Source: Flavobacteriales bacterium
GTDB taxonomy: Bacteria > Bacteroidota > Bacteroidia > Flavobacteriales_F > PHOS-HE28
DNA: 33,008 nucleotides
Direction: 5' to 3'
Assembly: GCA_016788285.1 (NCBI GenBank)
Contig: JAEUSW010000345.1
Coordinates: 1 to 33,008, forward strand
The position numbers and the translations under genes were made by a program. Each line of letters opens with the position of its first letter. Position 1 is the first letter of the stretch. Below the pieces are notes generated by a model. That model made no database searches. It was given only the letters and a program-made list of their open reading frames with translations, and was not told the DNA's origin. Positions 1 to 32,521 of this stretch are shown here, in pieces.

Positions 1-2544
1 GGCTATTACCGTGTGCACCTGGACGACGAGGACGTGGACGCCGAGCTCACCGCCACCGCACGGGTGGGGGTGCATCGGTATACGTTCAACCGGATGGACA
101 CGGCCACCTTGGTGCTCGACCTTCGGCATAGGGATCAACTGCGGGAAGGCACCCTTGAGCGCGTCTCCGCGAACGAGTTCGTTGGCGAACGTCGCAGCAG
201 CTCCTGGGCCAAGGATCAGCGACTGTTCTTCTGCATCCGGACCAATGCGCCATCCATCGGCCAGATGACGGAATACACCACCGTCACTCCAGGAAGCGTG
301 GCGAAGAACCCTTGTGCCGCGCTCTTCTTCAAGCCTTCCGGCGAACCGCTCATCGTGAAGGTCGGCATCAGTGCGGTAAGCATTGAAGGCGCGCGGAAGA
401 ACCTCGAGGCCGAGGTGCCGCACTGGGACTTCGACCGGGTTCGGGCGGAGGCCGAGGCCGCCTGGAACGCCGAGCTCAACAAGGTGCAGGTGAAGGGCGG
501 CACGCCGGAGCAGCAGCGCATCTTCCACACGGCGATGTACCACAGCCTCATCGCCCCCTGCGTGTTCAATGACGTGGACGGGCGGTACCGCGGCATGGAC
601 GGCGCGGTGCACCAGGCCGACCACGACGTGTACACCATCTTCAGCCTGTGGGACACCTTCCGCGCCACGCACCCGCTGTTCACGCTGCTGGAGCCCGACC
701 GGGTGAACGACTACATCCGCACCTTCCTGCTGCATTACCAGCAGGGCGGCCGGCTGCCGGTGTGGGAGCTGTGGGGCAACGAGACGGACTGCATGATCGG
801 CTACCACAGCGCCAGCGTGATCGCCGACGCGCACAGCAAGGGCATCCGGGGCTACGACGCCCGCCTGGCGCTGGATGCGCTGGTCGCCGGGGCCATGCGC
901 GACGAGCCGGGGCTCAACGCCTACCGCACGCGCGGCTACATCAGCAGCGAGGACCAGGCGGAGAGCGTGAGCCGCACGCTGGAGTATGCGTACGACGACT
1001 GGTGCATCGCCCAACTGGCGGAGGCGCTGGGCGCGGACAGCCTGGCCGCGGTGTTCACCCGGCGCGCGTATTCGTGGCAGAACCTGCTGGACCCGGGGAC
1101 GCGGTTCTTCCGCGCCCGGCGCAACGGCGGCCTGATCGAGCCCTTCGACCCGTACGAGGTGAACTACCACTTCACCGAAGCGAACGCCTGGCAGTACGGG
1201 CTCTTCGTGCCGCACCATCTCGACGACCTGTTGCGCGACGCGGGCGGAAGCAGTGCCCTGCGCTCGCGGCTCGATGAGCTGTTCGATGCCGATGTCCGCA
1301 CCAGCGGCCGGGAGCAGGCGGACATCACGGGCCTCATCGGGCAGTACGCCCACGGCAACGAGCCCAGCCACCACATGGCCTACCTCTACGCCCGCACGGA
1401 CGCTCCGGCTTGGATGGACGGGCTGGTGGACCGCATCCGCACGGAGTTCTACCGCGACGCCCCGGACGGGCTGATCGGCAACGAGGACTGCGGCCAGATG
1501 AGCAGCTGGTACGTGCTCAGTGCCCTGGGCCTCTACCCCATCTGCCCGGGCTCGCCGCAGTACACCCTGGGCGTGCCGCTGTTCGACGAGGCCACGGTGC
1601 GGCTGGCCAATGGACGCAGCCTGCGCATCACCGCCGAGCGCACGCCTGCCGACGCGCGCTATGTGGAGGAGATCGGGTGGAACGGCCGCGAACCGGAGGT
1701 CTTCCGCCAGCTGAGCCACGACCGCCTGATGGACGGGGGAACCCTGGCCTTTCGCATGGGCCCACGTCCGGGCGGAGCCCCTTCCTTCCCCGATCCCGGG
1801 GAGCCTGAGCTCTCGCTGGAACGGCCGCTACCCGCGCCCTGGGTGAACGCCCCGTCGCGCACCTTCACGGACACGCTGGCCGTGCGTTTCGTACGCCCCA
1901 TTCCCTATGGTCAGGTGCAGTACCGTCTGAAGGAGGGCGGCGTGAAGCAATGGCGCGCCGCGCCGGAGGTGCTCACCCTGCGGCAGTCGGGCACCGTGCA
2001 GGCACGCCTGGTGCTGGGCGATCGCACCGGGCCGGTGGTGGAGGCGAGGTTCGAGCGGCTGGAGGTGCGCCACACGGTGAGCCTGCAGAGCACCTACGCC
2101 AACCAGTACGCGGCCGGTGGCGACCAGGCGCTCGTCGACGGACTGCGCGGCGGGGTGGAGTTCCGGTCCGGCGAATGGCAGGGCTTCCAGGGCCAGGACG
2201 TGCTCGCCACGGTCGACCTGGGCGGTGAGCGGCGCCTCGATGCCGTGAGCGTGGGCGTGCTGCAGGACCAGCGGTCATGGATCTGGTACCCTGAGTACGT
2301 GGATGTCGCCTGGAGCATCAACGGTCGGCAGTGGAGCAGCACGGTGCTGACGCATGCGGTGGCCCGCGATGCGGACGGTGCACAGCGCTTGGAGCTCCGC
2401 ACCGGTCCCATCGGCAAGCGCGCCCGCTACGTGAAGCTGATGGCGAAGAACGCCGGTCCCTGCCCGGACTGGCACCCCAGCAAGGGTGGGTCGAGCTGGA
2501 TCTTCCTGGACGAGATCGGCATCGAGGCGGGGCCGCCCCGCTAA
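1..2544 (+). CDS. GH92 family exo-alpha-mannosidase with C-terminal F5/8-type domain (5' partial)
   Basis: Calcium-dependent GH92 enzymes release terminal mannose from alpha-mannosides such as N-glycans and yeast mannan. The reading frame is open from base 1, so the N-terminus, including any signal peptide, lies outside the window; 847 residues remain. The end of the N-terminal beta-sandwich is followed by an (alpha/alpha)6 catalytic barrel from about residue 160. Diagnostic blocks are GNEPSHHMAYLY (about 452-463) and GNEDCGQMSSW (about 493-503), which carries the acidic residues that act as general base in this family. After residue about 610 comes a chitobiase-C-like beta domain, then a discoidin (F5/8 type C) fold from about 690 to the end, likely for carbohydrate binding. 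A GH2 beta-mannosidase and cutC lie nearby on the other strand. The family is clear; the exact linkage cleaved is not known. Confidence 0.95.
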   Translation, partial: GYYRVHLDDEDVDAELTATARVGVHRYTFNRMDTATLVLDLRHRDQLREGTLERVSANEFVGERRSSSWAKDQRLFFCIRTNAPSIGQMTEYTTVTPGSVAKNPCAALFFKPSGEPLIVKVGISAVSIEGARKNLEAEVPHWDFDRVRAEAEAAWNAELNKVQVKGGTPEQQRIFHTAMYHSLIAPCVFNDVDGRYRGMDGAVHQADHDVYTIFSLWDTFRATHPLFTLLEPDRVNDYIRTFLLHYQQGGRLPVWELWGNETDCMIGYHSASVIADAHSKGIRGYDARLALDALVAGAMRDEPGLNAYRTRGYISSEDQAESVSRTLEYAYDDWCIAQLAEALGADSLAAVFTRRAYSWQNLLDPGTRFFRARRNGGLIEPFDPYEVNYHFTEANAWQYGLFVPHHLDDLLRDAGGSSALRSRLDELFDADVRTSGREQADITGLIGQYAHGNEPSHHMAYLYARTDAPAWMDGLVDRIRTEFYRDAPDGLIGNEDCGQMSSWYVLSALGLYPICPGSPQYTLGVPLFDEATVRLANGRSLRITAERTPADARYVEEIGWNGREPEVFRQLSHDRLMDGGTLAFRMGPRPGGAPSFPDPGEPELSLERPLPAPWVNAPSRTFTDTLAVRFVRPIPYGQVQYRLKEGGVKQWRAAPEVLTLRQSGTVQARLVLGDRTGPVVEARFERLEVRHTVSLQSTYANQYAAGGDQALVDGLRGGVEFRSGEWQGFQGQDVLATVDLGGERRLDAVSVGVLQDQRSWIWYPEYVDVAWSINGRQWSSTVLTHAVARDADGAQRLELRTGPIGKRARYVKLMAKNAGPCPDWHPSKGGSSWIFLDEIGIEAGPPR

Positions 2545-2590
2545 GCGTCGGTTCGGGAACTCTTGAATGATGGGCTCCGAGACCATTTTG

Positions 2591-2639
2591 GGGTCAGGCA
2601 CGGCCGGAAAAAGGTCGGATAGCGGTGACCGCCTGACCC
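2591..2639. repeat. Long-loop inverted repeat after the GH92 gene
   Basis: A 9-base arm, GGGTCAGGC (2591-2599), is complemented exactly by GCCTGACCC (2631-2639). Inside the loop a weaker stem can form between CGGCC and GGTCG around a run of five A. It may be the 3' end structure of the GH92 transcript or part of a degenerate intergenic repeat; the 31-base loop argues against a simple intrinsic terminator. Confidence 0.4.
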
Positions 2640-2678
2640 TGTTTCGGCGAAGCATGGCCGCAAACGGGCCGGAGAGCG
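2598..2678. repeat. Imperfect 27-base direct repeat, two copies
   Basis: Copies at 2598-2624 and 2652-2678 agree at 21 of 27 positions, with shared blocks GGCCG, AAA, CGGA and AGCG, 54 bases apart start to start. Nothing in the sequence identifies a mobile element. It may be a decayed intergenic repeat. Confidence 0.4.
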
Positions 2679-2725
2679 CATTTGAAGATCTCCTGAACAG
2701 GCTCTAAGGTCACCGCACAGAACGA

Positions 2726-2752
2726 GGAAGCCCGGCTTGCGGCCGGGCTTCC
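2726..2752 (-). terminator. Intrinsic terminator-like hairpin between convergent genes
   Basis: A perfect 11-base-pair stem pairs GGAAGCCCGGC (2726-2736) with GCCGGGCTTCC (2742-2752) around a 5-base loop. It lies 17 bases past the stop codon of the minus-strand type IX-secreted protein. On that strand it is followed only by a weak T-containing tail, so it may work bidirectionally between the two convergent genes. Confidence 0.7.
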
Positions 2753-2769
2753 GAAAGAAGGGTGATCGA

Positions 2770-4674
2770 TCAGCGCGCCACCTGCACGGCCTTGGTGCGC
2801 ACGAACTCGTCCGCGTGCACCTGGAGCAGGTAGTTGCCGTTCTGCAGGCCGGAGAGGTCGACCAGCACCGAGCGGTCGTTCACCGTGCGCACCGGCACAT
2901 CGAGCACCTGGCGTCCGGTGAGGTCGAACACCCGCACCACGGCGTTGGTCAATTGGTCCAGGCCGAGCTGGATGGTCACCGCGCCGGTGGTGGGGTTCGG
3001 GTAGAGCACGAAACCGGTGGCGTCGTTCTCATCGATGCCCACGAGGCCGCAACCCACATCCCACACCAGCGGGATCGTGGCCTGGCCATCGTCGCAGGAA
3101 CCGGTGTTGTTGGACTGGACCCGCAGGGTGAGCAGGTTGTCCGGGTTCTGGGAGCTGATGGAGAGACCGCTGAGGTCGCCGCCCAGGTTTCCGTTGAAGA
3201 GCACGCCGGCCAGGTCGTAGGCCCCGTTGTAGATCACCACCTTGTCCTCCACCAGCAGCTGCCCTTGCAGGAAGGTCATCGTGATCGGCAGGTTGGGGTC
3301 GCTCGACTGGTAGACGAACCAGGCGTCGTCGGTGTTCTCGTAGCAGTACGACGTGTTCACGTTGAGGCAGGCCGGGATCACGCAGCTGTCCTCATACGCC
3401 ACCACCGGGCCGCTGAAGATGCGGCAGAGGCTGTTGTCGCCGTTGAAGACCGACAGGTTGACGATCGTGTCCATGCCGATGGGGCCGAAGTTCTGGAGGC
3501 CGGTGCCGATGCCGAAGAGCGTGTCACCCGGAAGCACGAGATCCACGGTGGCGGCATCGCCGGTGGAGGTGACGTTCACCTCGATGCTGTACTCGCGGTG
3601 GATGCAATCGGGCACCACGGTGAAGGTCGCGGCGGGCACGTCGCAGTCCAGGCAGCCCACGGTCCAGTTCCACTCCCAGGCGGGGTTGGTGGAGCACTGC
3701 ACGGAACCGTCGGAGGTGATGGTCATGAAGATGTTGGGGCCCGTGGACACGATCGGAGGCAGCGTGCTCAGGTCGAAGGTGGGACCGTTGTGCTGCCAGA
3801 TGATCGGGCTTCCGTTGTTCGGGCCGTCATAGATGGTGAGCACGTCATAGACGGAGGACTCGATGGTGCCGGATGAGAAGACGATCGCCAGCGGATCGTT
3901 GTTGGAGCTCTGGTACCACCAGGTCTTGGTGTCGTTGGCCACGTAGCAGTAACTGTCGTTGTACTCGACTCCGCCACAATTGAGGATGACCGGGCAGTTC
4001 CCGGTGCTCTGGACGTTGAAGAAGCTCTGGCTGCAGGCCGCTTCGAACTCATGGCCCACCACGATGTCCACCAAGGCTCCGACAGTGAAGGGCCCGAGGG
4101 TGATGACACCGACACCCTGCCCGGGGATCTGCGGCTGAGGCGTGCCGTTGATGCTGTGGTCGATGTTGACGAACGAGCCATCACCGGTGCTGGCCACGTT
4201 CACATCGATGGTGAAGCTGTTGGTGTTGCAGTCGTCCAGCACGCTGTAGCTGGCCACCACCGGCGTGCAGTTCAGGAAGAGCTGCACGGTGGTGGTCACG
4301 CAGCTGGACTGCACGTTGCAGAGGTCGTCCACGTTCCAGTGGGGATACAGGTCACCGCCGGTCACGGCCGTGACGGTCACCGGGCTGTAGCCTTGGCCGA
4401 TGACGTTGCCGCCGGGAAAGTCCTCACGCACGGTGATGTAGCCGCCGGAGCTGAGGGTGAACTGGTAGGTCGCACCCGCGATGATGCCGGTGATCAGGGA
4501 GTACTCGGACTCGTAGCTGCATGTGCTGATGGTGGTCAGCGCGCCGAAGGGGTCGGGCGTGGCCTGGCCGAACTGGCTGGCGTTCTGGCAGTTCCCTTGT
4601 GCAAGGACGGCAGCGGTCGGCGCAAGGGCCGAAGCAAGGACGAGGACCTGGGTGATGTGTCGAAATGCGCTCAT
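2770..4674 (-). CDS. Secreted CUB-like repeat protein with type IX sorting domain
   Basis: This 634-residue protein begins with a signal peptide (MSAFRHITQVLVLASALAP then cleavage near VLAQ) and ends with an ~80-residue type A sorting domain: the FVLYPNPTTGAVTIQL block, then VRVFDLTGRQV and LQNGNYLLQV. Proteins of this class cross the outer membrane through the type IX system and are released or surface-anchored. The middle contains two copies of one module: an Ig-like strand set (VNVASTGDG and VNVTSTGDA) followed by a Cys-rich CUB-like domain (SYCYV...WWYQSS and SYCYE...WFVYQSS). An in-frame ATG at 4761 would add 29 residues without signal character, so 4674 is preferred. The biological target is unknown; adhesion or glycan binding is plausible. 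Confidence 0.88.
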   Translation of the reverse strand: MSAFRHITQVLVLASALAPTAAVLAQGNCQNASQFGQATPDPFGALTTISTCSYESEYSLITGIIAGATYQFTLSSGGYITVREDFPGGNVIGQGYSPVTVTAVTGGDLYPHWNVDDLCNVQSSCVTTTVQLFLNCTPVVASYSVLDDCNTNSFTIDVNVASTGDGSFVNIDHSINGTPQPQIPGQGVGVITLGPFTVGALVDIVVGHEFEAACSQSFFNVQSTGNCPVILNCGGVEYNDSYCYVANDTKTWWYQSSNNDPLAIVFSSGTIESSVYDVLTIYDGPNNGSPIIWQHNGPTFDLSTLPPIVSTGPNIFMTITSDGSVQCSTNPAWEWNWTVGCLDCDVPAATFTVVPDCIHREYSIEVNVTSTGDAATVDLVLPGDTLFGIGTGLQNFGPIGMDTIVNLSVFNGDNSLCRIFSGPVVAYEDSCVIPACLNVNTSYCYENTDDAWFVYQSSDPNLPITMTFLQGQLLVEDKVVIYNGAYDLAGVLFNGNLGGDLSGLSISSQNPDNLLTLRVQSNNTGSCDDGQATIPLVWDVGCGLVGIDENDATGFVLYPNPTTGAVTIQLGLDQLTNAVVRVFDLTGRQVLDVPVRTVNDRSVLVDLSGLQNGNYLLQVHADEFVRTKAVQVAR

Positions 4675-4707
4675 GCGTGGGGTCGTGTTGACCGGTTGGA
4701 TGGTTGC

Positions 4708-4715
4708 CGAAGGTA
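4708..4715 (-). promoter_or_regulatory. -7-type promoter element TACCTTCG for the type IX cargo gene
   Basis: The minus strand reads TACCTTCG, a one-base variant of the Bacteroidota -7 consensus TAnnTTTG. It lies 33 bases before the start codon at 4674. A TTG sits 21 bases upstream, compatible with the -33 element. Assignment is by pattern only. Confidence 0.5.
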
Positions 4716-4789
4716 GGGTTTGTCCGGTGGACCGCCCAAGTGGGAGGCGGGACGTTCGCACAGGGTCTGTTGAAAACCCGTGCAGGCGG

Positions 4790-6985
4790 CTAGGGCGTCC
4801 AGACCTCCCAACCGGGGGGCGCCCCTCCCCCCACCTCGATCCAGCGGTCCGCGCCGGGCAACAGGAAGAAGTCGTTGTCGCTCAAGGTGGCCCCAGGTGC
4901 GCGCAGATGCACGTTCGGGACGGGGACATCGGTGCTCACGCGGAACCGACCGGGCCTCGTCGGGTCCGGCGTCAGCTCGATGCGCGGGCGCTGCCAGTCC
5001 ATCGCCCCCCAGGGCGCCATCGTCAACGTCCGGTCGGCCAGCAGTTGGCCCCGTGGGTCCAGGACGCGGACATGGACCAGCGTCCTCTCCGGAGTTGACC
5101 CGGCCAGCACCTCGGGCACCGGCAGCCGGACCAGGTCGATCAAGCCATTGGCCGGAGAGAACCATAAGCTGTCGGATCGCAAGCAGCGTCCGTCGGTACT
5201 GAACACCTGTGTGATGGCCAGCAACAGGTCAGGATCCGCCTCCTCGTTCCACAGTGCGGCCACCACGGTCCCCTCCGCAGGCCGGAGATCGAGCACGAGC
5301 GGACGGTAGCTGCGGGCCACCTCGTACATCGCGGCCTTCCACGTACCGGTGTGGTCCACGGTGCTCCAGCTGGGCCCGGCCCACACGTCGTTGAGCTGCC
5401 AGAACAGGGTGCCCATGCAATGCGGTTGCGCCGTGAGGTGCGCCCAGATGGCCTGGCGGTAGGCCTCGGCCTGCGCCAGCTGGCTGAAACGGATCAGCTC
5501 GCCGAGCGTCCGCGGCCGCACGCCGAACTCGCGTTGGATGGCCTCCAGGATCGGCCGGTCGGTCTTGTAGCTCCGCTGTCGGGCGCCCAGCACCGGATCG
5601 CCGAGGTGCAAGTGCTCCGGATCGAGCTGCGTGGCGAGCGTAACGCTGTCGGGATAGCTCTGGAACCCGTACTCGCTCACGAACCGGCCCACGTTGCGGC
5701 CGAAGGAGGCGAAGCTGCTGTCCCCGTGCCAGACGCCCCAATAGTGCAGGTCGCCGTTCCGCAGGCCTTCGGCGTTGCCCCAGTTGCTCAGCGGAGATGT
5801 TGGCGTGTACGGCGCGCCGTCCAGAGAACGGACATGATCAAGGCCCCGAAGCAGATCGCCCTCGAACAGCGCGGTCATGCCATGGCGGACGCGCACCGAA
5901 TCGGCACCGTGGATCCGGTAGCGGTCCTGCCAGCCCCAGTTGTTCCAGGCCACCTCCAGTTCGTTGTTGCCGCACCACAGCGCCAGCCCCGGCCAGCGGC
6001 CCAGGCGCTCGGACTGGTCGGCGACCTCGGCCCGCACATTGTCCAGGAAGGCGCCTTCGGCCGGTGGGATGTTCGCGAACATCAGGTCCTGCCACACCAG
6101 GATCCCGGCCGTGTCACAGGCCGCGTAGAACGCGTCCGGGGGGTATACGCCGCCCGCCCACACGCGCACCATGTTCATGCCCGCCCGCTGCATGTCGCGC
6201 ACCCGGGCCACCCACAGGCTGTCCGGACCGGGGAACATGGACGGCGGCACCAGGTTGCAGCCCTTGATGAAAAGCGGGCGGCCGTTGCGCATGAAGCGGA
6301 ATGTCCGCCCGATGCTGTCCGGGCGCTGGTCCAAGGATACCTGCGGCGTTGAACGCGGGACCGGAACACCAGGCCGCTCCAAGGCCACTTCCTGCCAGAT
6401 GCCGAGGGTGACGAGGCGCGGGGAGAAGTCCCATCCGAACTGGTAAGCGGCCTTGCGCACGTAGGGGCTCGTCCCGCTCGGGTCGCTGTCGTGCGGGAGC
6501 TGGATGCCGTAGGCGGCGCGCAGCTGCGCCCCTTCACGCACCGGGCTTCGGAGCACCACGCGGAGGTCGTTGGCCCCTTCACGCAGAAGGCCATGCACCG
6601 GCCATTTCCAGGTCCGGAACATGTTGTCCGCACCGCCCAACCTGACGCCGTTGAGGCGGACGTCGGCGAACGTATCGATGCCTTTGAAGACCAACAACGC
6701 GTCGGCATGAGCGGCCCAATCGGCATCCGCCTCGAACCGCAGCGCGTATTCCCAATCGCGGAGCTCGACCCAGCGCACACTGTCGCTGTGGGCGTTCCGC
6801 AAGGGGTCGGGGATGCGACCGGTGCGGAGGAGGTCCTCGTGCACGGTCCCCGGCACCCGGGCGGGCCACCACCGCTCGGTGCCGAGCTCGCGATACCGCC
6901 AGCCGTCGTTGAGCGCCTTCCGCGCGGGCTGGGCGACGGCCGCCAAGGCCCAGAGGCCCGCGACGGTCAGTAGGGCGAGCCTCAT
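4790..6985 (-). CDS. GH2 family beta-mannosidase lacking the usual Ig-like middle domain
   Basis: Exo-beta-mannosidases of GH2 remove beta-1,4-mannose, for example from the chitobiose-linked core of N-glycans. The 731-residue protein has a signal peptide (MRLALLTVAGLWALAAVAQ), an N-terminal jelly-roll sugar-binding domain (about 25-203) and a TIM barrel (from about 228). The acid/base is E342 in CGNNE and the nucleophile is E438 in VSEYGFQSYP. A short C-terminal beta domain follows. Family members usually run to about 850 residues. Here the jelly roll (ending GIWQEVALE) joins within about 25 residues to the barrel entry (SIGRTFRFMRNGRPLFIKG), so the first Ig-like domain is missing with the frame kept. 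Its start overlaps the cutC stop by 4 bases, implying coupled translation. Confidence 0.92.
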   Translation of the reverse strand: MRLALLTVAGLWALAAVAQPARKALNDGWRYRELGTERWWPARVPGTVHEDLLRTGRIPDPLRNAHSDSVRWVELRDWEYALRFEADADWAAHADALLVFKGIDTFADVRLNGVRLGGADNMFRTWKWPVHGLLREGANDLRVVLRSPVREGAQLRAAYGIQLPHDSDPSGTSPYVRKAAYQFGWDFSPRLVTLGIWQEVALERPGVPVPRSTPQVSLDQRPDSIGRTFRFMRNGRPLFIKGCNLVPPSMFPGPDSLWVARVRDMQRAGMNMVRVWAGGVYPPDAFYAACDTAGILVWQDLMFANIPPAEGAFLDNVRAEVADQSERLGRWPGLALWCGNNELEVAWNNWGWQDRYRIHGADSVRVRHGMTALFEGDLLRGLDHVRSLDGAPYTPTSPLSNWGNAEGLRNGDLHYWGVWHGDSSFASFGRNVGRFVSEYGFQSYPDSVTLATQLDPEHLHLGDPVLGARQRSYKTDRPILEAIQREFGVRPRTLGELIRFSQLAQAEAYRQAIWAHLTAQPHCMGTLFWQLNDVWAGPSWSTVDHTGTWKAAMYEVARSYRPLVLDLRPAEGTVVAALWNEEADPDLLLAITQVFSTDGRCLRSDSLWFSPANGLIDLVRLPVPEVLAGSTPERTLVHVRVLDPRGQLLADRTLTMAPWGAMDWQRPRIELTPDPTRPGRFRVSTDVPVPNVHLRAPGATLSDNDFFLLPGADRWIEVGGGAPPGWEVWTP

Positions 6986-23470: not shown

Positions 23471-23536
23471 ACGCCCGTCCGTCCCCTTCCCCACCCCGCT
23501 CATCCACGGGGGCATGGCCGCAGGCCGTTCGTTGTG

Positions 23537-23544
23537 CACCTTCG
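23537..23544 (+). promoter_or_regulatory. -7-like octamer CACCTTCG ahead of lepB
   Basis: CACCTTCG keeps the AnnTTCG core and lies 7 bases before the lepB ATG at 23552. The first base does not match the consensus T. Confidence 0.35.
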
Positions 23545-23551
23545 CAGCCAG

Positions 23552-25111
23552 ATGATCCCCTACCTCGTCCTCTTCGCCTACTTCGCCGTCCTCTTCGGCT
23601 GCCTGTGGAAGTACTTCCAAAAGGCCGGCCGCAAGGCGTGGGAAGGCCTCGTGCCCGGTTACAACATCCTCATCTGGCTGAAGCTGAGCGGCAAGCCGTG
23701 GTGGTGGATCTTCCTCTTCCTGGTGCCGGGCGTGAACCTGCTGATGTTCATGATCCTGAACGTGAACCTGAGCATCACCCTGGGCGAGCGCGGCTTCAAG
23801 GACCACCTGGTGATGACGCTGCTGCCTTGGGTGAAGATCCCGCAGCTGGCCTTCTCGCCGAAGCACACCTATGTGGGCCCGATCCCGGTGGCGCAGCGCA
23901 AGCGCGGGCTGCTGGGCCAATGGGGCGATGCCATCCTGTTCGCGGTGATCGTGGCCACGGTGTTCCGCACCTTCACCTTCGAGGCCTTCACCATCCCCAC
24001 GCCCAGCATGGAGAAAAGCCTGCTGGTGGGCGACTACCTGTTCGTGAGCAAGCTGAGCTACGGGCCGCGCATGCCGATGACCCCGCTCACCTTCCCCTTC
24101 ACGCACCACACCATGCCGCTGACGGCGAGCACGCCCAGCTTCGTCACCTGGTTCAGCCAGCCCTACCGGCGGCTGCCCGGCTTCGGCAAGCCCGAGCGGG
24201 GTGATGCGGTGGTGTTCAACTTCCCCGAGGGCGACACCGTGGTGGCGAACTTCCAGAACCAGAGCTACTACCAGCTGGTGCGCGACCACGGCCGCGAGAA
24301 GATCCACGACCCCGGCTACCGCATGCTGAACATGGTGGACGGCCAGGTGCGGCAGATGCCCACGGGCGGCATCCTGGTGCGGCCGCTGGACAAGAAGGAG
24401 AACTACATCAAGCGCTGCGTGGCCGTGGCGGGCGACACCGTGGAGGTGCGCGGCGGCCTGGTCCACATCAACGGGGTGAAGCAGCACGTGCCGGAGATGG
24501 CCCAGTACGCCTACGAGTTCGTGCTGAAGGACCGCTTCAACGAGCGGATGCTGAAGGAGCAGTACGACATCAGCCCGGACGACCTGTCGCCCGGCGAGAA
24601 CGGCGGGGTGAGCATCCCCCTCACCGAGGCCAACGCGGCGAAGCTGGGCGGCTTCAGCAACGTGGCCAGCATGACCCGGCAGGACCATCCGAAAGGCTAC
24701 AGCTCGCCCTACCACAAGCTGCCCTACTTCCCCAACCATCCCGCCTTCGACTGGACGGAGGACAACTTCGGCCCCCTGTGGATCCCGAAGGCCGGTGCCA
24801 CCGTGGCCCTCACCCTGGCGAACCTGCCGCTGTACGAGCGTGCGATCCGGGTGTACGAGCACAACGACCTACGCGTGGATGGCGACCGCATCCTGATCAA
24901 CGGCGCGCCGGCCACCAGCTACACCTTCAAGCAGGACTACTACTGGCTGATGGGCGACAACCGGCACCGGTCGCAGGACGCGCGGTTCTGGGGCTTCGTG
25001 CCGCACGACCACGTGGTGGGCAAGGCCGTGCTGGTGTGGTTCACCAAGGACCCGTACACGGGCATCCGGTGGAAGCGCCTCTTCACCGTGGTGCGCAACG
25101 GCCTGAAGTGA
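23552..25111 (+). CDS. lepB: Signal peptidase I, long Bacteroidota form
   Basis: The 519-residue enzyme cleaves signal peptides after Sec or Tat export. The N-terminal part (MIPYLVLFAYFAVLFGCLW.. and WWWIFLFLVPGVNLLMFMIL) is a DUF5684-type pair of membrane helices. The S26 domain follows with the nucleophile S152 in IPTPSMEKSL, the base K287 in YIKRCVAVAGDTVEV, and the closing box GDNRHRSQDARFWGFVP. A large insert (about 305-430) between the Lys box and the closing box is typical of Bacteroidota LepB. The start at 23552 skips six residues of an upstream in-frame extension. A shorter paralogue follows directly. Confidence 0.94.
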   Translation: MIPYLVLFAYFAVLFGCLWKYFQKAGRKAWEGLVPGYNILIWLKLSGKPWWWIFLFLVPGVNLLMFMILNVNLSITLGERGFKDHLVMTLLPWVKIPQLAFSPKHTYVGPIPVAQRKRGLLGQWGDAILFAVIVATVFRTFTFEAFTIPTPSMEKSLLVGDYLFVSKLSYGPRMPMTPLTFPFTHHTMPLTASTPSFVTWFSQPYRRLPGFGKPERGDAVVFNFPEGDTVVANFQNQSYYQLVRDHGREKIHDPGYRMLNMVDGQVRQMPTGGILVRPLDKKENYIKRCVAVAGDTVEVRGGLVHINGVKQHVPEMAQYAYEFVLKDRFNERMLKEQYDISPDDLSPGENGGVSIPLTEANAAKLGGFSNVASMTRQDHPKGYSSPYHKLPYFPNHPAFDWTEDNFGPLWIPKAGATVALTLANLPLYERAIRVYEHNDLRVDGDRILINGAPATSYTFKQDYYWLMGDNRHRSQDARFWGFVPHDHVVGKAVLVWFTKDPYTGIRWKRLFTVVRNGLK

Positions 25112-25139: not shown

Positions 25140-26084
25140 ATGCGCAGGGTGTGGCAACGGTGGCTGGGCCTGGGCCCGTGGACGCGGGCCTTCGTGCAGG
25201 CCTTGCTGCTGCTGGCCCTGGTGCATGCCCTGGTGCTCCGCTGGGTGATCGTGCAGAGCACGAGCATGTTCGCCACGCTGCTGCCGGGCGATGTGCTGGC
25301 CGTACAGCGCTGGCCCGTGTGGACGGGCGTGGACCGCGGGGATGTGCTCGTGTTCCGCGACCCCACGCAGGACGACCGGCCGGTGCGGAAGCGGCAACTG
25401 CTGGTGAAGCGCGTGGTGGGCCTGCCCGGCGACACGGTGGAACTGCGCGCCGGCCTGGTGCTGGTGAACGGCCGCCCCCTGCCGCCCTGGCCCGGGGAGA
25501 CCCGCCGGTACCTCGTGCGCGTGGACCCGGGCACCTCCCTGGACAGCGTCGCCGCCGCCATCGGCCTGCCCCGCACCTTCATCGCGGGGGGTGAGCGGCA
25601 CCTGGAGCTGCCGTTGAACCCCGCGCTGGCGGCCCGCCTGGAGCACGTGCGCGGCGTGCGCGACACCGGCCCGATGGGCCTGAGCCAACGCCCGGCCCGC
25701 CACCTCTTCCCCTTCAGCCCCTTCCACCCGTGGAGCAGCGACGCCTACGGGCCGTTGCGCGTGCCGGCGGCCGGCGACAGCGTGCCCTTGGAGCCCGCGC
25801 AGCTGCCGCTCTACGACCGCATCCTCACCCGGCACGAGGGGCATGTGCTGGAAGTGGGCCGGGACGGCCTGCTGCTGGACGGGGCCCCGGCCACGACCGC
25901 GGTGATCGCCCGCGACCACTACTTCGTGCTGGGCGACAGCCGGCACAACAGCGCCGACTCGCGCCACTGGGGCTTCGTGCCGGCCGACCACCTGGTGGGC
26001 CGGGCGAGGCGCGTGCTGCTGTCGTGGGACGCGGAACGCCGGCAGCTGCGCGGGGACCGGTGGTGGTGGCCCCTCGGCCGGTAG
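25140..26084 (+). CDS. Second signal peptidase I family protein
   Basis: The 314-residue protein is a divergent S26 peptidase. After a single membrane anchor (AFVQALLLLALVHALVL) it has VQSTSMFATLLPGD with nucleophile S42 and QLLVKRVVGLPGDTVEL with base K90. An insert similar to that of its neighbour follows (YGPLRVPAAGDSVPL, LPLYDRIL), then the closing box VLGDSRHNSADSRHWGFVP. All catalytic elements are present, so it should be active, perhaps on a subset of signal peptides. It lacks the DUF5684 N-terminal helices of the first enzyme and probably arose by duplication. Confidence 0.9.
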   Translation: MRRVWQRWLGLGPWTRAFVQALLLLALVHALVLRWVIVQSTSMFATLLPGDVLAVQRWPVWTGVDRGDVLVFRDPTQDDRPVRKRQLLVKRVVGLPGDTVELRAGLVLVNGRPLPPWPGETRRYLVRVDPGTSLDSVAAAIGLPRTFIAGGERHLELPLNPALAARLEHVRGVRDTGPMGLSQRPARHLFPFSPFHPWSSDAYGPLRVPAAGDSVPLEPAQLPLYDRILTRHEGHVLEVGRDGLLLDGAPATTAVIARDHYFVLGDSRHNSADSRHWGFVPADHLVGRARRVLLSWDAERRQLRGDRWWWPLGR

Positions 26085-26591: not shown

Positions 26592-27220
26592 CGTTGGACG
26601 CGGTGCATGAGCGCCTGGCCACGGCCCTTCGGGGGCCGCTGCCGGGGCACGCCGCCTTCCTGTCGCGGAGCGGCTACTCCCGTGCGGACCTGGACAGCGC
26701 TCAACGCGCGGACACCGCACCCCGGGAGAGCGCCGTGCTGGCCCTGCTCTATCCCGCCTTGGGCGAGCCGCACCTCCTGCTCATGCGCCGGCCCGAGTAT
26801 GCCGGGGTGCACAGCGGGCAGGTGAGCTTCCCGGGCGGACGGCGTGAGCCGCAGGATGCCGACCTGCAGGCCACCGCGCTGCGGGAGTTCCAGGAGGAGA
26901 CGGGGGCCGTGCCCAGGGACCTGCGCGTGCTGGGGGCCTTGACGCAGGTGTACATCCCGCCCAGCCGCTCGTTGGTGACGCCCTTCGTGGGCCTGGCCGG
27001 GGAACTGGGCCCCACCCGCCCCGACCCGCGCGAGGTGCAGGCGCTGCTGGAGGTGCCGCTGGCCGAGCTGCTGCGGCCCGATGTCATCCGGCAGCGCCGG
27101 CAGCACATCCAGGTGCTCGGCCGCGAGGCGGAGATCCCCTACTTCGATCTGGGCGGCCAGGTGGTGTGGGGGGCCACGGCCATGATGCTGGCCGAACTAC
27201 GCGAGCTGCTCCACGGCTGA
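26588..27220 (+). CDS. Nudix hydrolase, CoA pyrophosphatase type (NudL-like)
   Basis: The 210-residue protein has the UPF0035 signature that marks CoA-type Nudix enzymes, LLLMRRPEYAGVHSGQVSFPGG. The Nudix box follows (GGRREPQDADLQATALREFQEETGAV), whose Glu residues hold the metal. Such enzymes cut CoA or its derivatives into phosphopantetheine and adenosine 3',5'-bisphosphate. The start at 26588 overlaps the TPR lipoprotein stop. The 3' end overlaps the convergent cyclase gene by 24 bases. Confidence 0.92.
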   Translation: MTLDAVHERLATALRGPLPGHAAFLSRSGYSRADLDSAQRADTAPRESAVLALLYPALGEPHLLLMRRPEYAGVHSGQVSFPGGRREPQDADLQATALREFQEETGAVPRDLRVLGALTQVYIPPSRSLVTPFVGLAGELGPTRPDPREVQALLEVPLAELLRPDVIRQRRQHIQVLGREAEIPYFDLGGQVVWGATAMMLAELRELLHG

Positions 27221-30200
27221 GGCCACGCCGAGCTCCTGCAGGAAGCGCTCGTTGGGGCGGCTGCCGGCCTTGTCCGCGCTGTGCTCGGGCTTGATGCGGC
27301 GCACGAAGTACATGTCGATGGCGCCCTTGTTCTTGGCCTCGATCTGCCCCCGGTGCACGCACTCGAAGCGGTCCTTGATCAGCGCGTACGTGGAGCCGCT
27401 GACGTTGACCTCGCCGGGCTCGCCGCTGCTTTCCATGCGGCTGGCGGTGTTCACCGTATCGCCCCAGATGTCGTAGGCGAACTTGCGCTTGCCCACCACC
27501 CCGGCCACCACCGGGCCGGTGTGCACCCCGATGCGCAGGATCCAGGGCACCTTGCCCTTCGCCTCGCGCTGGCGGCGCCACTCGTCCATCAGGTCGCGCA
27601 CCTCCAGGGCGGCCAGCACGCACTTCACCGCGTGGTGCGGATCGGCCACGGGCACGCCGGAGGCGCACATGTAGCTGTCGCCGATGGTCTTGATCTTCTC
27701 GATCCCGTAGCGGCCCACGATCTCATCGAAGTGGATGAAGCACTCGTCCAGTTCGGTGACCAGCTCCTCCGGGCTCATTTTCTCGGCGGCCTTGGTGAAG
27801 CCCTTCATGTCGGTGAAGAGCACGGTGACGGCGTCGTGGCGGCGGGCGGTGGCCTTGCCCTTGTCCTTGAGCTCCTCGCTGATCTCCTTGGGCAGGATGT
27901 TGAGCAGCAGGTCCTCGATGCGGCCCTTCTGGTGCTCGATCTCGCGGCTCTGGGCGCGCACCTCCTCGGTGCGTTCCTCCACCCGGCGCTCCAGGATCTG
28001 GTTGCGCATGCGCAGCTGGCGTTCGCGCACCTTCACCCAGCTGAAGAGCACGAGGGCGATGAAGGCGGTGAGCGCGGTGTAGAACCACCAGGAGCGGTAC
28101 CACGGGGGCAGCACGGTGAAGGTGAGGCTGGCGGGAGCGCTCCACAGGCCCGCCCGGTTGATGCTCTTCACCCGGAAGGTGTAGTTGCCGGGGGGCAGCG
28201 CCGGGAAGAAGGCCTCCGTGGCCGCCGTCAGCGGCTGCCAATCGGGGTCCAGGCCCTCCAGAAGGGTGCTGTACCGCACGGCACCGGGATCGCTGAGGCT
28301 CACCGTGCCGTAGTGGATGCGGATGGACCGCTCGCTGTGGCCGAGGCTGAGGTCCTGCTCCAGCGGGCGGTCCTCCAGGTTCACGCTCAGCCCGCGCAGC
28401 GCCACGATGGGCGGGGTCGGTGCACCGTCGCCCTGGTCGGGCACCACCCGGGTGGCGCCGCGGGCCGTGCCGAACCACAGGTCACCGTCGCGGGTGAGGC
28501 AGACCGCACCGGGCTTGGCCTCCACACCGATGAAGCCGGAGCGCTCCGTGTACGAGAGGAAGCCTTCCTGATCGGGGCGCCAGCTGTTGAGCCCGCCCAC
28601 CGTTCCGATCCACAGGTGGCCCTTGGCATCGCGCAGCAGCGAGCGCACCGTATTGTCCAACAGACCGTCCGCCTGGGTCCAGGTCCGGTCCTCACGGCCG
28701 TCGGTGAGCACCAGCAGGCCCTGGCTGCGGGTGCCCACCCAGATCCGCCCTTGACCATCCTGCACGAAGGCGGTCGGTGAAACGGACCTGCCCAGGTCGA
28801 TGCGCTGCGCACGTCCGTTGTCGATGCGGGTGATGCCCTTGTCCTTGCTGCCCACCCAGATGGTGCCGCGGTCGTCGCGGTACAGCGCGGTGACGGGCGT
28901 GGTGGGCACGCCGTCCTCCTCGGTGTACACCATCGGCGGGGCCCCGGTGGCGTAGCGGCGCAGACCGGTGATGGTGCCGACGTACAGCTCGCCCGGCTGC
29001 CCCACGGCCAGCGCCGTCACCTTGCCGCGCGGGATCAGCACGTCGAGGTCGGGGTGCGGCACCGGCTGGAACGCCACGGGGTCCAGCTCCACCAGCCCAT
29101 TGGTCTCCGAGCCCACCCACACGTTGCCGCTGGCATCCTCGGCCAGCACCCGCACGCGGGAGGTGCGCACGGTCTGCAGGTTCTTGATCATGCCCGTGCC
29201 CTGCACGCGCGGGTCCAGGATGCTCACGCCACCGTCCGTGCCGAACCAGATGCGTCCGCTGCGGTCCTCCAGCACGGCCCATACCTGCTGGTCCAGCAGC
29301 CCGTCCTGCTCCAGCAGGTTCAGGAAGCGCTCGCCCTTGAAGATGTTGAGGCCGTAGTCGTTGGTGGCGAGCAGCATGTTGCCTTCCCGGTCGCGGGTGA
29401 TGCGGCGGATCAGCAGGCTCTCGAGGCCGTTGCCCGGATGGTAGTGCCGGCGCACGCCGTTGAGGCCGATCACGGCGGCGCCACCGCCCCAGGTGCCCAC
29501 CCACACCTGGCCGCTGGCGTCCTCTCCGAAGCACATCACGAAGTCGCTGGGCAGGCCGTTCGCCGTGCTGTAGTTCACCACCTGTCCGGTGCGGGGATCG
29601 AGCACGAAGGCGCCGCTGCTCTGGGTGCCGAGCCAGCGGCGGCCGTCGGAATCCTCGTACAGCGCGCTGACGCCGAGCACGTCCTCCAAGCCGTTCCACT
29701 CCAGGGAGGCGAAGCGCTTGCCGGCAGGGTCCCACCGCTTCAGCGTGCCGCCGTCCTCCAGGAAGGCGAGGGTGCCGTCGCGGAAGTGTACCGCGTCCAC
29801 CACGTGCTCGAGCAGGCCCTGGTCGCTGCCGAAGCGGTCCACCGTGGGCACGCCGTCCTCGCTGATGGCGCTGATGCGCAGGGCGCCCTGGCCCATGGTG
29901 GTGACCCACACCGCACCATCGCCGTCCTGCACCAGGGCGGTGACGTCGGACGTCAGGGCCTCGCCGGGCAGGGCCAGCGTGGCGAAGCTGCGGCCGGAGC
30001 GCACCGTGAGGCCGCCGCCGGTGTGGCCCGCCCAGAAGCGGCCGCCGCGGTCGATCAGCAAGCAGCGCGCCCCCTTGGGGGCCGTGCCATCCTCCGTGCC
30101 GTAGGCCCGGATGCCCACGCGGTCACGGCCGTCGAAGCTCACCAGCCCGTCCTCGGTGCCCAGCCACACCAGGCCCGTGCTGTCCTGCACCACGCTGTAC

Positions 30201-30310
30201 ACGTTGCTGGAGGGCAGCCCGTTCTGCACATCGAGGCGCTCGAAGTAGAAGCGCTGCGCCGCCAGGGGCGCGGTGAGCACGAGCGGAAGAACGATCAGCA
30301 GGCGGCGCAT
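27197..30310 (-). CDS. Propeller/Y_Y_Y sensor fused to class III adenylate cyclase
   Basis: This 1037-residue receptor has a signal peptide (MRRLLIVLPLVLTAPLAAQ) and a periplasmic part of 14 propeller repeats (such as VWLGTEDGLVSF and IWVGSKDKGITRI), enough for two seven-bladed propellers. A Y_Y_Y domain, one membrane helix (about 735-760), a coiled coil and a cytoplasmic class III cyclase follow. Its active site is complete: metal ligands D834 (LFTDMKGFT) and D878 (TIGDSYM), plus an Asn and Arg in NTASRMES. The adenine-selecting pair K874 and D947 (YDIWGDTVN) marks it as an adenylate rather than a guanylate cyclase. In most relatives of this layout the output is a histidine kinase. The gene begins 3 bases after the caspase-like gene's stop and is probably co-transcribed. 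The ligand is unknown. Confidence 0.93.
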   Translation of the reverse strand: MRRLLIVLPLVLTAPLAAQRFYFERLDVQNGLPSSNVYSVVQDSTGLVWLGTEDGLVSFDGRDRVGIRAYGTEDGTAPKGARCLLIDRGGRFWAGHTGGGLTVRSGRSFATLALPGEALTSDVTALVQDGDGAVWVTTMGQGALRISAISEDGVPTVDRFGSDQGLLEHVVDAVHFRDGTLAFLEDGGTLKRWDPAGKRFASLEWNGLEDVLGVSALYEDSDGRRWLGTQSSGAFVLDPRTGQVVNYSTANGLPSDFVMCFGEDASGQVWVGTWGGGAAVIGLNGVRRHYHPGNGLESLLIRRITRDREGNMLLATNDYGLNIFKGERFLNLLEQDGLLDQQVWAVLEDRSGRIWFGTDGGVSILDPRVQGTGMIKNLQTVRTSRVRVLAEDASGNVWVGSETNGLVELDPVAFQPVPHPDLDVLIPRGKVTALAVGQPGELYVGTITGLRRYATGAPPMVYTEEDGVPTTPVTALYRDDRGTIWVGSKDKGITRIDNGRAQRIDLGRSVSPTAFVQDGQGRIWVGTRSQGLLVLTDGREDRTWTQADGLLDNTVRSLLRDAKGHLWIGTVGGLNSWRPDQEGFLSYTERSGFIGVEAKPGAVCLTRDGDLWFGTARGATRVVPDQGDGAPTPPIVALRGLSVNLEDRPLEQDLSLGHSERSIRIHYGTVSLSDPGAVRYSTLLEGLDPDWQPLTAATEAFFPALPPGNYTFRVKSINRAGLWSAPASLTFTVLPPWYRSWWFYTALTAFIALVLFSWVKVRERQLRMRNQILERRVEERTEEVRAQSREIEHQKGRIEDLLLNILPKEISEELKDKGKATARRHDAVTVLFTDMKGFTKAAEKMSPEELVTELDECFIHFDEIVGRYGIEKIKTIGDSYMCASGVPVADPHHAVKCVLAALEVRDLMDEWRRQREAKGKVPWILRIGVHTGPVVAGVVGKRKFAYDIWGDTVNTASRMESSGEPGEVNVSGSTYALIKDRFECVHRGQIEAKNKGAIDMYFVRRIKPEHSADKAGSRPNERFLQELGVASAVEQLA

Positions 30311-30313
30311 CGG

Positions 30314-32521
30314 CTATCGGGTGAGGTCGTAGAAACTGGCCTCCGAGCCGGCGGCATCGCTCACCACCAGGGTGTTGCTCACCGACTCGCTGTAGTTCTG
30401 GATGAGGTTCTTCAGCGGCCCGTAGTTGTAGAAGGTGTAGATGTCGTCCTTCTTGGCGTCCACGGGGATCCAGTAGCTCTTGCCGCCCACGGTGCGGCCG
30501 TGCCCGGCGTACCACACCAGCACGGTGTTCACCTTGTTGCTGCGCACCAGGTCGCGCAGCTCGGTGCTGAAGAAGCGCTCGAGCTGTTGCTTGGAGAGGT
30601 TCTTCTTGGTGATGGTCCTCTGCACATTGTACTTGGCGAAGGCCTTCTGCATCTTGGCCGCATCGCCGCCCTGGCCCTGCAGCGCGGGGAAGCTGCGGTA
30701 CTCGCTGTTCTCGATGTACACCACCCAGGTGGTGCCGGAGGACACCGCGGTGCCCCCTGTGGGCTTGTCGGCCGGGCGCTCGACGGGCTTGTCCGCGGGA
30801 CGGTCGGCCACCACGGCGGGCTCCACGGGACGCGGGGCGGGCGCCGCCTTGCGTTGGATCTGCACCACCACTTCGCTGGCGTTGCCGAAGCGGTCCTCGG
30901 CCCGCACGGTGAACCGGTCCTTGCCGGCGATCACCAGCTTGATGCTGAACTCCGTGCGGTTGGTGTCGGGCACGTAGCTGGCCACGATGCCGTCCACCGT
31001 CACGCTGCGGATGATGCTCGCATCGCCGGCCACCCCCTCGATGAAGAGGTCCTCGCGGTCGGCCGCCACCGTGATGATGCGGTCGGCCCCGGGGTCCGGC
31101 GAGGTCACCGCCAGTTCGGGGGCCACGCCTTCGGTGCGTTCCACCTTCAGGGTCACCGTGGCGATGTTGCCGTACACGTCCTCGGCCTCCACGGTGAGCC
31201 GCTCCTCGGCGAGGCCCAACGGGATGCTGGTGAAGAACTCCGGGTCCTTCTCGTCGCGGGCGAAGTCGGCCTCGGTGCCGTTCACGCGGATGGCCTTCAG
31301 CAGGTTGCGGTCGCGCACGTGGCCGTTGACCTTCACCTGGCGCAGGGCGTTGCTCACCTGCACCACCTCGCCGGTGCGGCTGGGCTCCACCAGGGTGATC
31401 ACCGGCGGGTCCTCTTCGCGGTTCAGCTCGAAGAGCGCATCGGCCACGCGCTTGCGCCGCTCCTGGATGTCCTGGGCCGTGATGCCTTCGGCGTGGATGC
31501 CCTCGGGCAAGGCCTTGGCGGCCAGGTCCAGGTCGCGCTGCGCCCCCTCCAGGTCCACGTTGGCCTCCTTGCACTCGGCGCGCAGCAGCAGGGCGTTCAC
31601 GTCCTTGGGCTGCTCCTGCAGCACGCGGTTCAGGTCGTTCACGGCGTTCTGCTGCTGGCCATAGCCGTTGTAGTAGCGGGCGCGCTGGCGGTACACCTCG
31701 GCGTCCGTGCGGCCGTTGGCGATCACCTTGCTGATGTCGTCGATGGCCTTGGCGTACTCCTTCTGCAGGGCGAAGGCCTTGCTGCGGGTGAAGAGGGCCG
31801 CGGTGCTGCGCGGGTTCAGCTCCAGGGCGGTGGTGGTGCGCTCCACGGCCTTGTCCAGGGTGCGCAGCTGCATGGTGGGGCCGGTGTACTGCTCGTACAG
31901 CTTCAGCTGCACCTCGGCCAGCGCCACGTAGGCGTCCTCGTACAGGTAGTTCCACTCGATCACCCGCTCCAGGTCGGTCTCGGCGGTGCGGTAGTCGCGC
32001 TGGGCCATGCGCACCAGGCCGTGGAGGTAGTAGGTGTCGGTGGTGCCCTTCTGCGCCAGGGCGGCGTCGCTGGCGGCGGCGGCACCGTCCAGGTCGTTCA
32101 GCGCCAGGCACACGCGCACCTTGGTCTGCAGGGCCTCCATGCTCTTGGGGTCGGTGGCCAGCGCCTTGTTGCACAGCTCCAAGGCCTCCTGCGGGCGGCC
32201 AAGGTCGAGGTAGGCGCGGGCGGCGCGGGCGGCATGGCCGGCATCGCCGGGGTCCAGCTCGTGCACCTTGCGCAGGTCGGCGGCGGCGTCGGCGGTGCGG
32301 TCCAGCAGGGTGTACACCTCGGCGCGGGCCTGGTAGGCCTTCACCATGCCGGGCTCCACCTGGATGGCCAGGCCGTATTTCTCCACCGCTTCGCTGAGCT
32401 GCTGGGCCTGGCGCAGGGCCTCGGCCTCCTTGAAGAAGGCCTTGCCGCTTTGGGCCTGGGCGGTGACGAACAGGCCCAAGGCCGCCACCAGGATCAGGGA
32501 GGAACGCGTGCTTCCGAGCAT
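30314..32521 (-). CDS. Periplasmic TPR, Ig-like and degenerate caspase-like protein
   Basis: The 735-residue protein has a signal peptide (MLGSTRSSLILVAALGLFVTAQAQ) and about nine TPR-like repeats (to about residue 370). At least two Ig-like domains follow (about 385-570), then a Pro-rich linker (KPVERPADKP) and a C-terminal caspase-like domain. The catalytic His loop is intact (VWYAGHG, H674), but in the position of the DAC-type Cys loop the sequence reads VSDAAGSEASFYDLTR and then stops. Ala724 stands where the catalytic Cys is expected, and the small-subunit part of the fold is absent. It therefore looks like a pseudo-protease, perhaps a scaffold. It precedes the adenylate cyclase by 3 bases. 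Confidence 0.82.
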   Translation of the reverse strand: MLGSTRSSLILVAALGLFVTAQAQSGKAFFKEAEALRQAQQLSEAVEKYGLAIQVEPGMVKAYQARAEVYTLLDRTADAAADLRKVHELDPGDAGHAARAARAYLDLGRPQEALELCNKALATDPKSMEALQTKVRVCLALNDLDGAAAASDAALAQKGTTDTYYLHGLVRMAQRDYRTAETDLERVIEWNYLYEDAYVALAEVQLKLYEQYTGPTMQLRTLDKAVERTTTALELNPRSTAALFTRSKAFALQKEYAKAIDDISKVIANGRTDAEVYRQRARYYNGYGQQQNAVNDLNRVLQEQPKDVNALLLRAECKEANVDLEGAQRDLDLAAKALPEGIHAEGITAQDIQERRKRVADALFELNREEDPPVITLVEPSRTGEVVQVSNALRQVKVNGHVRDRNLLKAIRVNGTEADFARDEKDPEFFTSIPLGLAEERLTVEAEDVYGNIATVTLKVERTEGVAPELAVTSPDPGADRIITVAADREDLFIEGVAGDASIIRSVTVDGIVASYVPDTNRTEFSIKLVIAGKDRFTVRAEDRFGNASEVVVQIQRKAAPAPRPVEPAVVADRPADKPVERPADKPTGGTAVSSGTTWVVYIENSEYRSFPALQGQGGDAAKMQKAFAKYNVQRTITKKNLSKQQLERFFSTELRDLVRSNKVNTVLVWYAGHGRTVGGKSYWIPVDAKKDDIYTFYNYGPLKNLIQNYSESVSNTLVVSDAAGSEASFYDLTR

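Follow-up and report, generated by a model that had tools for sequence, protein, structure and literature searches.

A conserved gene pair encoding a secreted pseudo-caspase and a propeller/adenylate cyclase receptor in Flavobacteriales

The window, a stretch of 33,008 nucleotides from a Flavobacteriales bacterium, carries a conserved sensor pair with an exchangeable output, which in one genus has been converted to a pseudo-protease/adenylate cyclase form. We propose, with a probability of about 0.6, that the two genes (Table 1) constitute one signalling unit, in which the secreted TPR/Ig/half-caspase protein would serve as a periplasmic co-receptor or regulatory subunit and cAMP would act via CRP-type regulators. 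A functional unit is likely because the pairing holds across the genus and eight further families and because the partners co-vary even where they are unlinked.

Table 1. Features of the gene pair in the window
Feature	Coordinates	Strand	Length	Description
Caspase-like gene	32521..30314	minus	735 aa	
Secreted pseudo-caspase	30314..32521	minus		Signal peptide 1-23; TPRs 24-366; two Ig-like domains 373-560; variable linker; half caspase domain 597-735
Half Peptidase_C14 domain	30317..30733	minus		His of GHG kept; Cys position Ala (SDAAGS)
Receptor gene	30310..27197	minus	1037 aa	
Propeller/Y_Y_Y/transmembrane/adenylate cyclase receptor	27197..30310	minus	1037 aa	
Periplasmic sensor, residues 19-737	28100..30256	minus		Two seven-bladed Reg_prop propellers and Y_Y_Y; BT4663 ectodomain fold
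Apparent transmembrane helix, residues ~738-765, and conserved coiled-coil linker, residues 766-815	27866..28099	minus		From sequence; conservation 60% and 79%, respectively
Class III adenylate cyclase domain, residues 816-1005	27296..27865	minus		All catalytic motifs present

Composition of the two proteins

The earlier note on this DNA had described a two-gene unit at 27197-32521, and its position, order and spacing are borne out by the sequence: the caspase-like gene comes first, both genes share a reading frame, and the junction TAG-CCG-ATG leaves a gap of 3 bases. Elsewhere in the window, an ORF at 23534-25111 (+) encodes a signal peptidase I (Peptidase_S26 with DUF5684 in Pfam), and the adjoining ORF at 25140-26084 (+) resembles another signal peptidase I by sequence.

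The 14 propeller repeats and Y_Y_Y domain noted earlier for the receptor agree with its Pfam matches (Reg_prop, 2e-53; Y_Y_Y, 6.6e-14), and the modelled periplasmic part superposes on the ectodomain of BT4663 (4a2m), which supports the reading of two propellers. The class III adenylate cyclase, previously called apparently complete, is a near full-length Guanylate_cyc domain (PF00211, 3e-57, model 3-181 of 183) with every catalytic residue in place, i.e., the two metal Asp, the Lys/Asp adenine pair and the Asn and Arg of the active site. Given that the motifs FTD, EKIKTIGDSY and YDIWGDTVNTASR are present in the receptor, as in nearly all of its orthologues, the domain is complete and of the adenine-selective Lys/Asp type, and the receptor should make cAMP inside the cell. 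Within the genus, the coiled coil (79%), the cyclase (76%) and the Y_Y_Y domain (67%) are better conserved than the propellers (51-53%).

Each protein begins with an apparent Sec signal peptide that leaves Gln as the first mature residue (+1), which corresponds to the Q-rule for exported proteins of Bacteroidetes (PMC5837995). From these signal peptides and the one apparent transmembrane segment of the receptor, we infer that both sensor parts are periplasmic.

The ectodomain of double seven-bladed Reg_prop propellers and Y_Y_Y, the signal peptide and the single transmembrane helix are shared with the Bacteroides HTCS proteins BT4663 (PDB 4a2l/4a2m) and BT3049 (3v9f). In contrast to these HTCS proteins, the window receptor ends in a class III adenylate cyclase, with no histidine kinase, receiver or AraC-type output found by Pfam, and a caspase-like gene accompanies it. 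Receptor-type class III adenylate cyclases (PDB 4p2f, 7yz9 and mammalian AC5) have the same catalytic motifs and a coiled-coil linker preceding the cyclase, whereas the window receptor adds an extracytoplasmic propeller sensor and the partner gene.

For the secreted protein, Pfam and sequence analyses recovered the TPR/Ig/caspase-like layout with a signal peptide that had been proposed before, the Ig-like domains being Glucodextran_B/Big_9 matches. Its Peptidase_C14 match is partial (1.4e-8, model 4-126 of 233), while those of relatives reach 222-223. In the alignment, Ala stands opposite the Cys of DACESGP and only 11 residues follow it, so the term pseudo-caspase is justified. In the AlphaFold2 model the half caspase forms a strand/helix core. 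Compared with an active C14 peptidase, both the His-Cys dyad (His present, Cys replaced by Ala) and the domain are incomplete, and by its sequence the protein cannot act as a cysteine protease. It is not a paracaspase either, as no Ig domain of the PF00047/PF13895/PF13927 type precedes p20, only Glucodextran_B and Big_9. C14 homology with loss of the catalytic dyad is what defines the pseudo-orthocaspases among prokaryotic orthocaspases (PMC6426788), and in this sense the window's protein belongs with them. In the published pseudo-variants, however, Tyr and Ser replace His and Cys (PMC6426788), a replacement absent here, where His is retained in most cases, Ala stands in for Cys and the domain breaks off shortly past the Cys position.

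These properties are common to the genus. Ala occupies the Cys position throughout, except for one Ser and one Val; the proteins finish 11 residues past this position with SFYELTR or a near variant; and His is retained in all except three. The phosphatase-paired relatives described below all have His and Cys and ~104 more residues, which complete the C14 model. At a mean pairwise identity of 72%, the half-caspase exceeds every other domain of the protein in conservation within the genus (TPR, 59%; Ig, 58 and 55%). A domain that cannot catalyse but whose conservation comes close to that of an enzyme most likely acts by binding.

The Pfam C14 match can be extended through the stop codon into the receptor (43 bits vs. 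35), which we attributed to chance, as the receptor's signal peptide and first blade add only ~8 bits. We also considered whether a frameshift or an error of assembly had truncated the caspase and rejected this, every genus orthologue examined having the same terminal residue. The window's genome contains a second, short Peptidase_C14 match (genome G000, contig C155, 61-348, minus strand).

Pairing of the genes within and outside the genus

Within the genus, 28 genomes, the window's own included, contain a receptor orthologue (53-94% identity), and in 28/28 the caspase-like gene ends directly upstream, either overlapping the receptor match or within ~250 bases of it. The pair is also carried by G239, G353 and G407, and by G034, in which the receptor is cut by the contig end. 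Both partners are absent from G020, G026 and G029, and G001, G015 and G031 have caspase fragments only. In many members, as read from sequence, the pair is flanked by fabI on its upstream side and by a NUDIX gene on its downstream side; the window's upstream gene differs from this fabI. Recurrence of the pair in dozens of genomes, together with the fact that only ~12 ORFs of the window's genome carry Reg_prop repeats, rules out chance adjacency. It should be noted that the named GTDB records of the genus are mostly MAGs titled "Flavobacteriales bacterium"; one MAG titled Chryseobacterium gleum (L190, CAMCAZ010000003.1) has the genus's pair and is probably misnamed.

Within one genus, descent alone can keep genes adjacent. 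A class-wide search of 395 genomes identified full-length caspase-like homologues in many other families, and in eight of them (f6, f18, f20, f27, f29, f33, f41 and f44) the next same-strand gene encodes a propeller/Y_Y_Y receptor. The pairing is thus not particular to this genome, as the earlier note had asked of its own proposal. The complete receptors of these eight families end in a SpoIIE-type phosphatase (PF07228 confirmed in three), and their caspase-like partners are full length with His and Cys intact. The earlier comparison with histidine-kinase receptors is refined accordingly: among the nearest relatives of the receptor, the output is a SpoIIE-type phosphatase and the partner an intact caspase. 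Protein by protein, these pairs are homologous to that of the window, with the same gene order and spacing; they differ in the intact, full-length caspase and in the phosphatase that stands where the window has a cyclase. We know of no published name for such propeller/Y_Y_Y/SpoIIE and TPR-Ig-caspase pairs.

A GTDB scan gave 270 relatives, and among the best 80 the propeller receptor is the next gene in 74 (35 in the genus and 39 outside, L210 being judged by inspection), while the other 6 reach a contig edge; a pairing rate of 74/74 is an upper figure, since the best 80 lie closest to the query. Wherever the output could be read among these 80 loci, an intact Cys always accompanies a phosphatase and a lost Cys always a cyclase. 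Given that the genus is one clade, this association represents one evolutionary event, not many.

Other arrangements were also observed. In G048, a different, shorter caspase-like protein (L080, 177-1517, plus strand) precedes by ~460 bases a propeller-SpoIIE receptor (1976-5476, plus strand) that falls outside the paired clade, and the association of caspases with receptors may have arisen more than once. In G175, five consecutive same-strand ORFs match the TPR-caspase profile (L157, 826-11813, minus strand), and the Cys motif is intact in one or more of them. The class survey found second caspase-like copies in f27 and f41 and unpaired copies in f3, f62 and one f33 genome. G200 (f33) has a caspase and a paired-clade receptor that are unlinked.

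In f3, the caspase gene stands alone, and the genomes with an intact dyad (G036, G082, G118 and G311) have a paired-clade receptor elsewhere. Five g84 genomes of this family have a caspase without His and Cys (read in L134, L136, L143, L158 and L159), and no paired-clade receptor was found in them. Their proteins are full length with His/Cys replaced by Gln/Ala, Glu/Gly or Leu/Gly, probably through one event of loss. In f62, G324, G201 and G171 have an intact caspase and no paired-clade receptor, so the caspase appears able to act without the receptor. Two f62 loci have an MFS protein encoded next after an intact TPR-Ig-caspase gene, one with HEAT repeats and a cyclic-nucleotide-binding domain (L130, 3424-6738, minus strand) and one resembling it by sequence (L153, 1854-5204, plus strand); they are a further link of this caspase family to cyclic nucleotides.

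Phylogeny and probable exchange of the output domain

The trees were quick ones with SH-aLRT support only. In the tree of the propeller part, the paired receptors form one strongly supported clade, which includes the receptor of the window, and the cyclase receptors of the genus nest among phosphatase receptors, near f33. In the caspase tree, the genus is one clade within the paired group, its sister not settled. As related bacteria keep the pair, the pairing is old and real, and the cyclase output and dead caspase are derived states of the genus. Because the cyclase receptors nest within the phosphatase-paired clade, the best reading is that an ancestor of the genus exchanged a phosphatase output for a cyclase, and that the caspase of the genus was deprived of its Cys and of the C-terminal half of its domain. 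Descent of the sensor from the genus's other propeller-cyclases was rejected, as these fall elsewhere in the propeller tree.

A paired-clade receptor with a class III cyclase output also occurs in f62 (L266, 1429-4479, plus strand, in G303). The cyclase of L266 clusters with a second f62 cyclase and is distant from that of the genus, so cyclase outputs were probably acquired twice. The same f62 genome retains an intact caspase (L160), so a cyclase output does not in itself require loss of the caspase.

A proposed signalling unit and its alternatives

In the proposed unit, the TPR and Ig parts would take in a signal (a ligand, a peptide or an envelope state), and the conserved caspase-fold domain would bind the receptor ectodomain or a ligand shared with the receptor. 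The Y_Y_Y domain, transmembrane helix and coiled coil would relay the change to the cyclase dimer, and CRP-type regulators would be the targets of the cAMP so made. Proteolysis may be part of the periplasmic step in relatives whose unit combines an intact caspase-like enzyme with a SpoIIE-type phosphatase; in the window's genus, this step would have to consist of binding alone. The CRP-type regulators that such a route presupposes are present in the genome: of six cNMP-binding ORFs, Pfam assigns a Crp HTH to two or more. The genome also has ~10 class III cyclase domains, so cAMP made by this receptor would either have to be insulated or mix into a shared pool, and the specific cAMP route is uncertain.

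Consistent with a signalling unit are the joint absence of both genes from G020, G026 and G029 and the situation in f3, where an intact unlinked caspase accompanies a clade receptor and a dead caspase the absence of one. Against it stand the three f62 genomes that keep an intact caspase alone. Since the two genes are in frame, read-through translation gave a tethered chain that comprises only the caspase domain and the receptor ectodomain. AlphaFold2 models of this chain from the window (mean pLDDT 86, pTM 0.71) and from a phosphatase pair (pTM 0.68) showed no confident interface between the caspase domain and ectodomain, as both values are about equal to the pTM of ~0.7 that we estimate for an undocked domain of these sizes; the poorly predicted caspase part makes the second model weak evidence either way. 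The idea that the caspase-like protein is a co-sensor or ligand of the propeller is partly supported, by conserved pairing and co-variation; the models lend no support to direct contact.

The lack of a predicted interface would be expected if the two proteins shared a pathway without contact, i.e., were co-transcribed and responded to the same envelope condition, the caspase-like protein acting elsewhere (e.g., as a TPR scaffold) and the propeller alone gating the cyclase. HTCS receptors that bind glycans directly offer a model for such propeller-only gating, which the close fold match to the glycan-sensing BT4663 ectodomain and the lone caspases of f62 also favor. However, the partners are strictly adjacent, one to one, across many families, have been lost together and are both kept even where they are unlinked, which is more than usual co-regulation shows, and we regard this explanation as a tentative second choice.

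A rather improbable alternative is that the link was originally proteolytic, the caspase cleaving the receptor or its ligand, and that the truncated form of the genus is a leftover inhibitor or decoy masking the former cleavage site. The intact His and Cys of every phosphatase-paired relative, the full-length dead versions where the receptor is gone and the conservation of the truncated domain all fit such a history. Set against them, no cleavage site or substrate is known, and the coexistence in f62 of the cyclase receptor L266 with an intact caspase indicates that output type and catalysis are not tied. That the pair merely reflects chance neighbors, or an assembly or frameshift artefact, is very hard to sustain, because all examined genus orthologues have the same pair and the same C-terminal end, the pair is retained in eight other families and it stays while its upstream neighbor changes.

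Returning to the co-receptor reading, it can be extended, at roughly even odds, to a class of caspase-coupled transmembrane receptors in Bacteroidota, in which a periplasmic caspase-like protein would gate a propeller receptor with an exchangeable cytoplasmic output (SpoIIE phosphatase, or adenylate cyclase at least twice), the protease having become a pure binding subunit in one genus when the output changed to cAMP.

Discussion of bacterial caspase homologues usually treats them as proteases of cell death or stress, with few known partners. No description of the pair was found in the open-access literature searched, in line with the earlier statement that no described system of this form was known. 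TPR architectures and operons are reported in a survey of prokaryotic caspase homologues, in which a term search found no mention of propellers or cyclases (PMC3501461). The pair described here ties one family of caspase homologues to a constant genetic partner, a transmembrane receptor, across many families of the class. It also illustrates clearly how a sensor can exchange its output domain and keep its periplasmic partner. The genus in which a dead half-caspase is combined with a cyclase offers a natural experiment, in which binding by the caspase fold is set apart from proteolysis.
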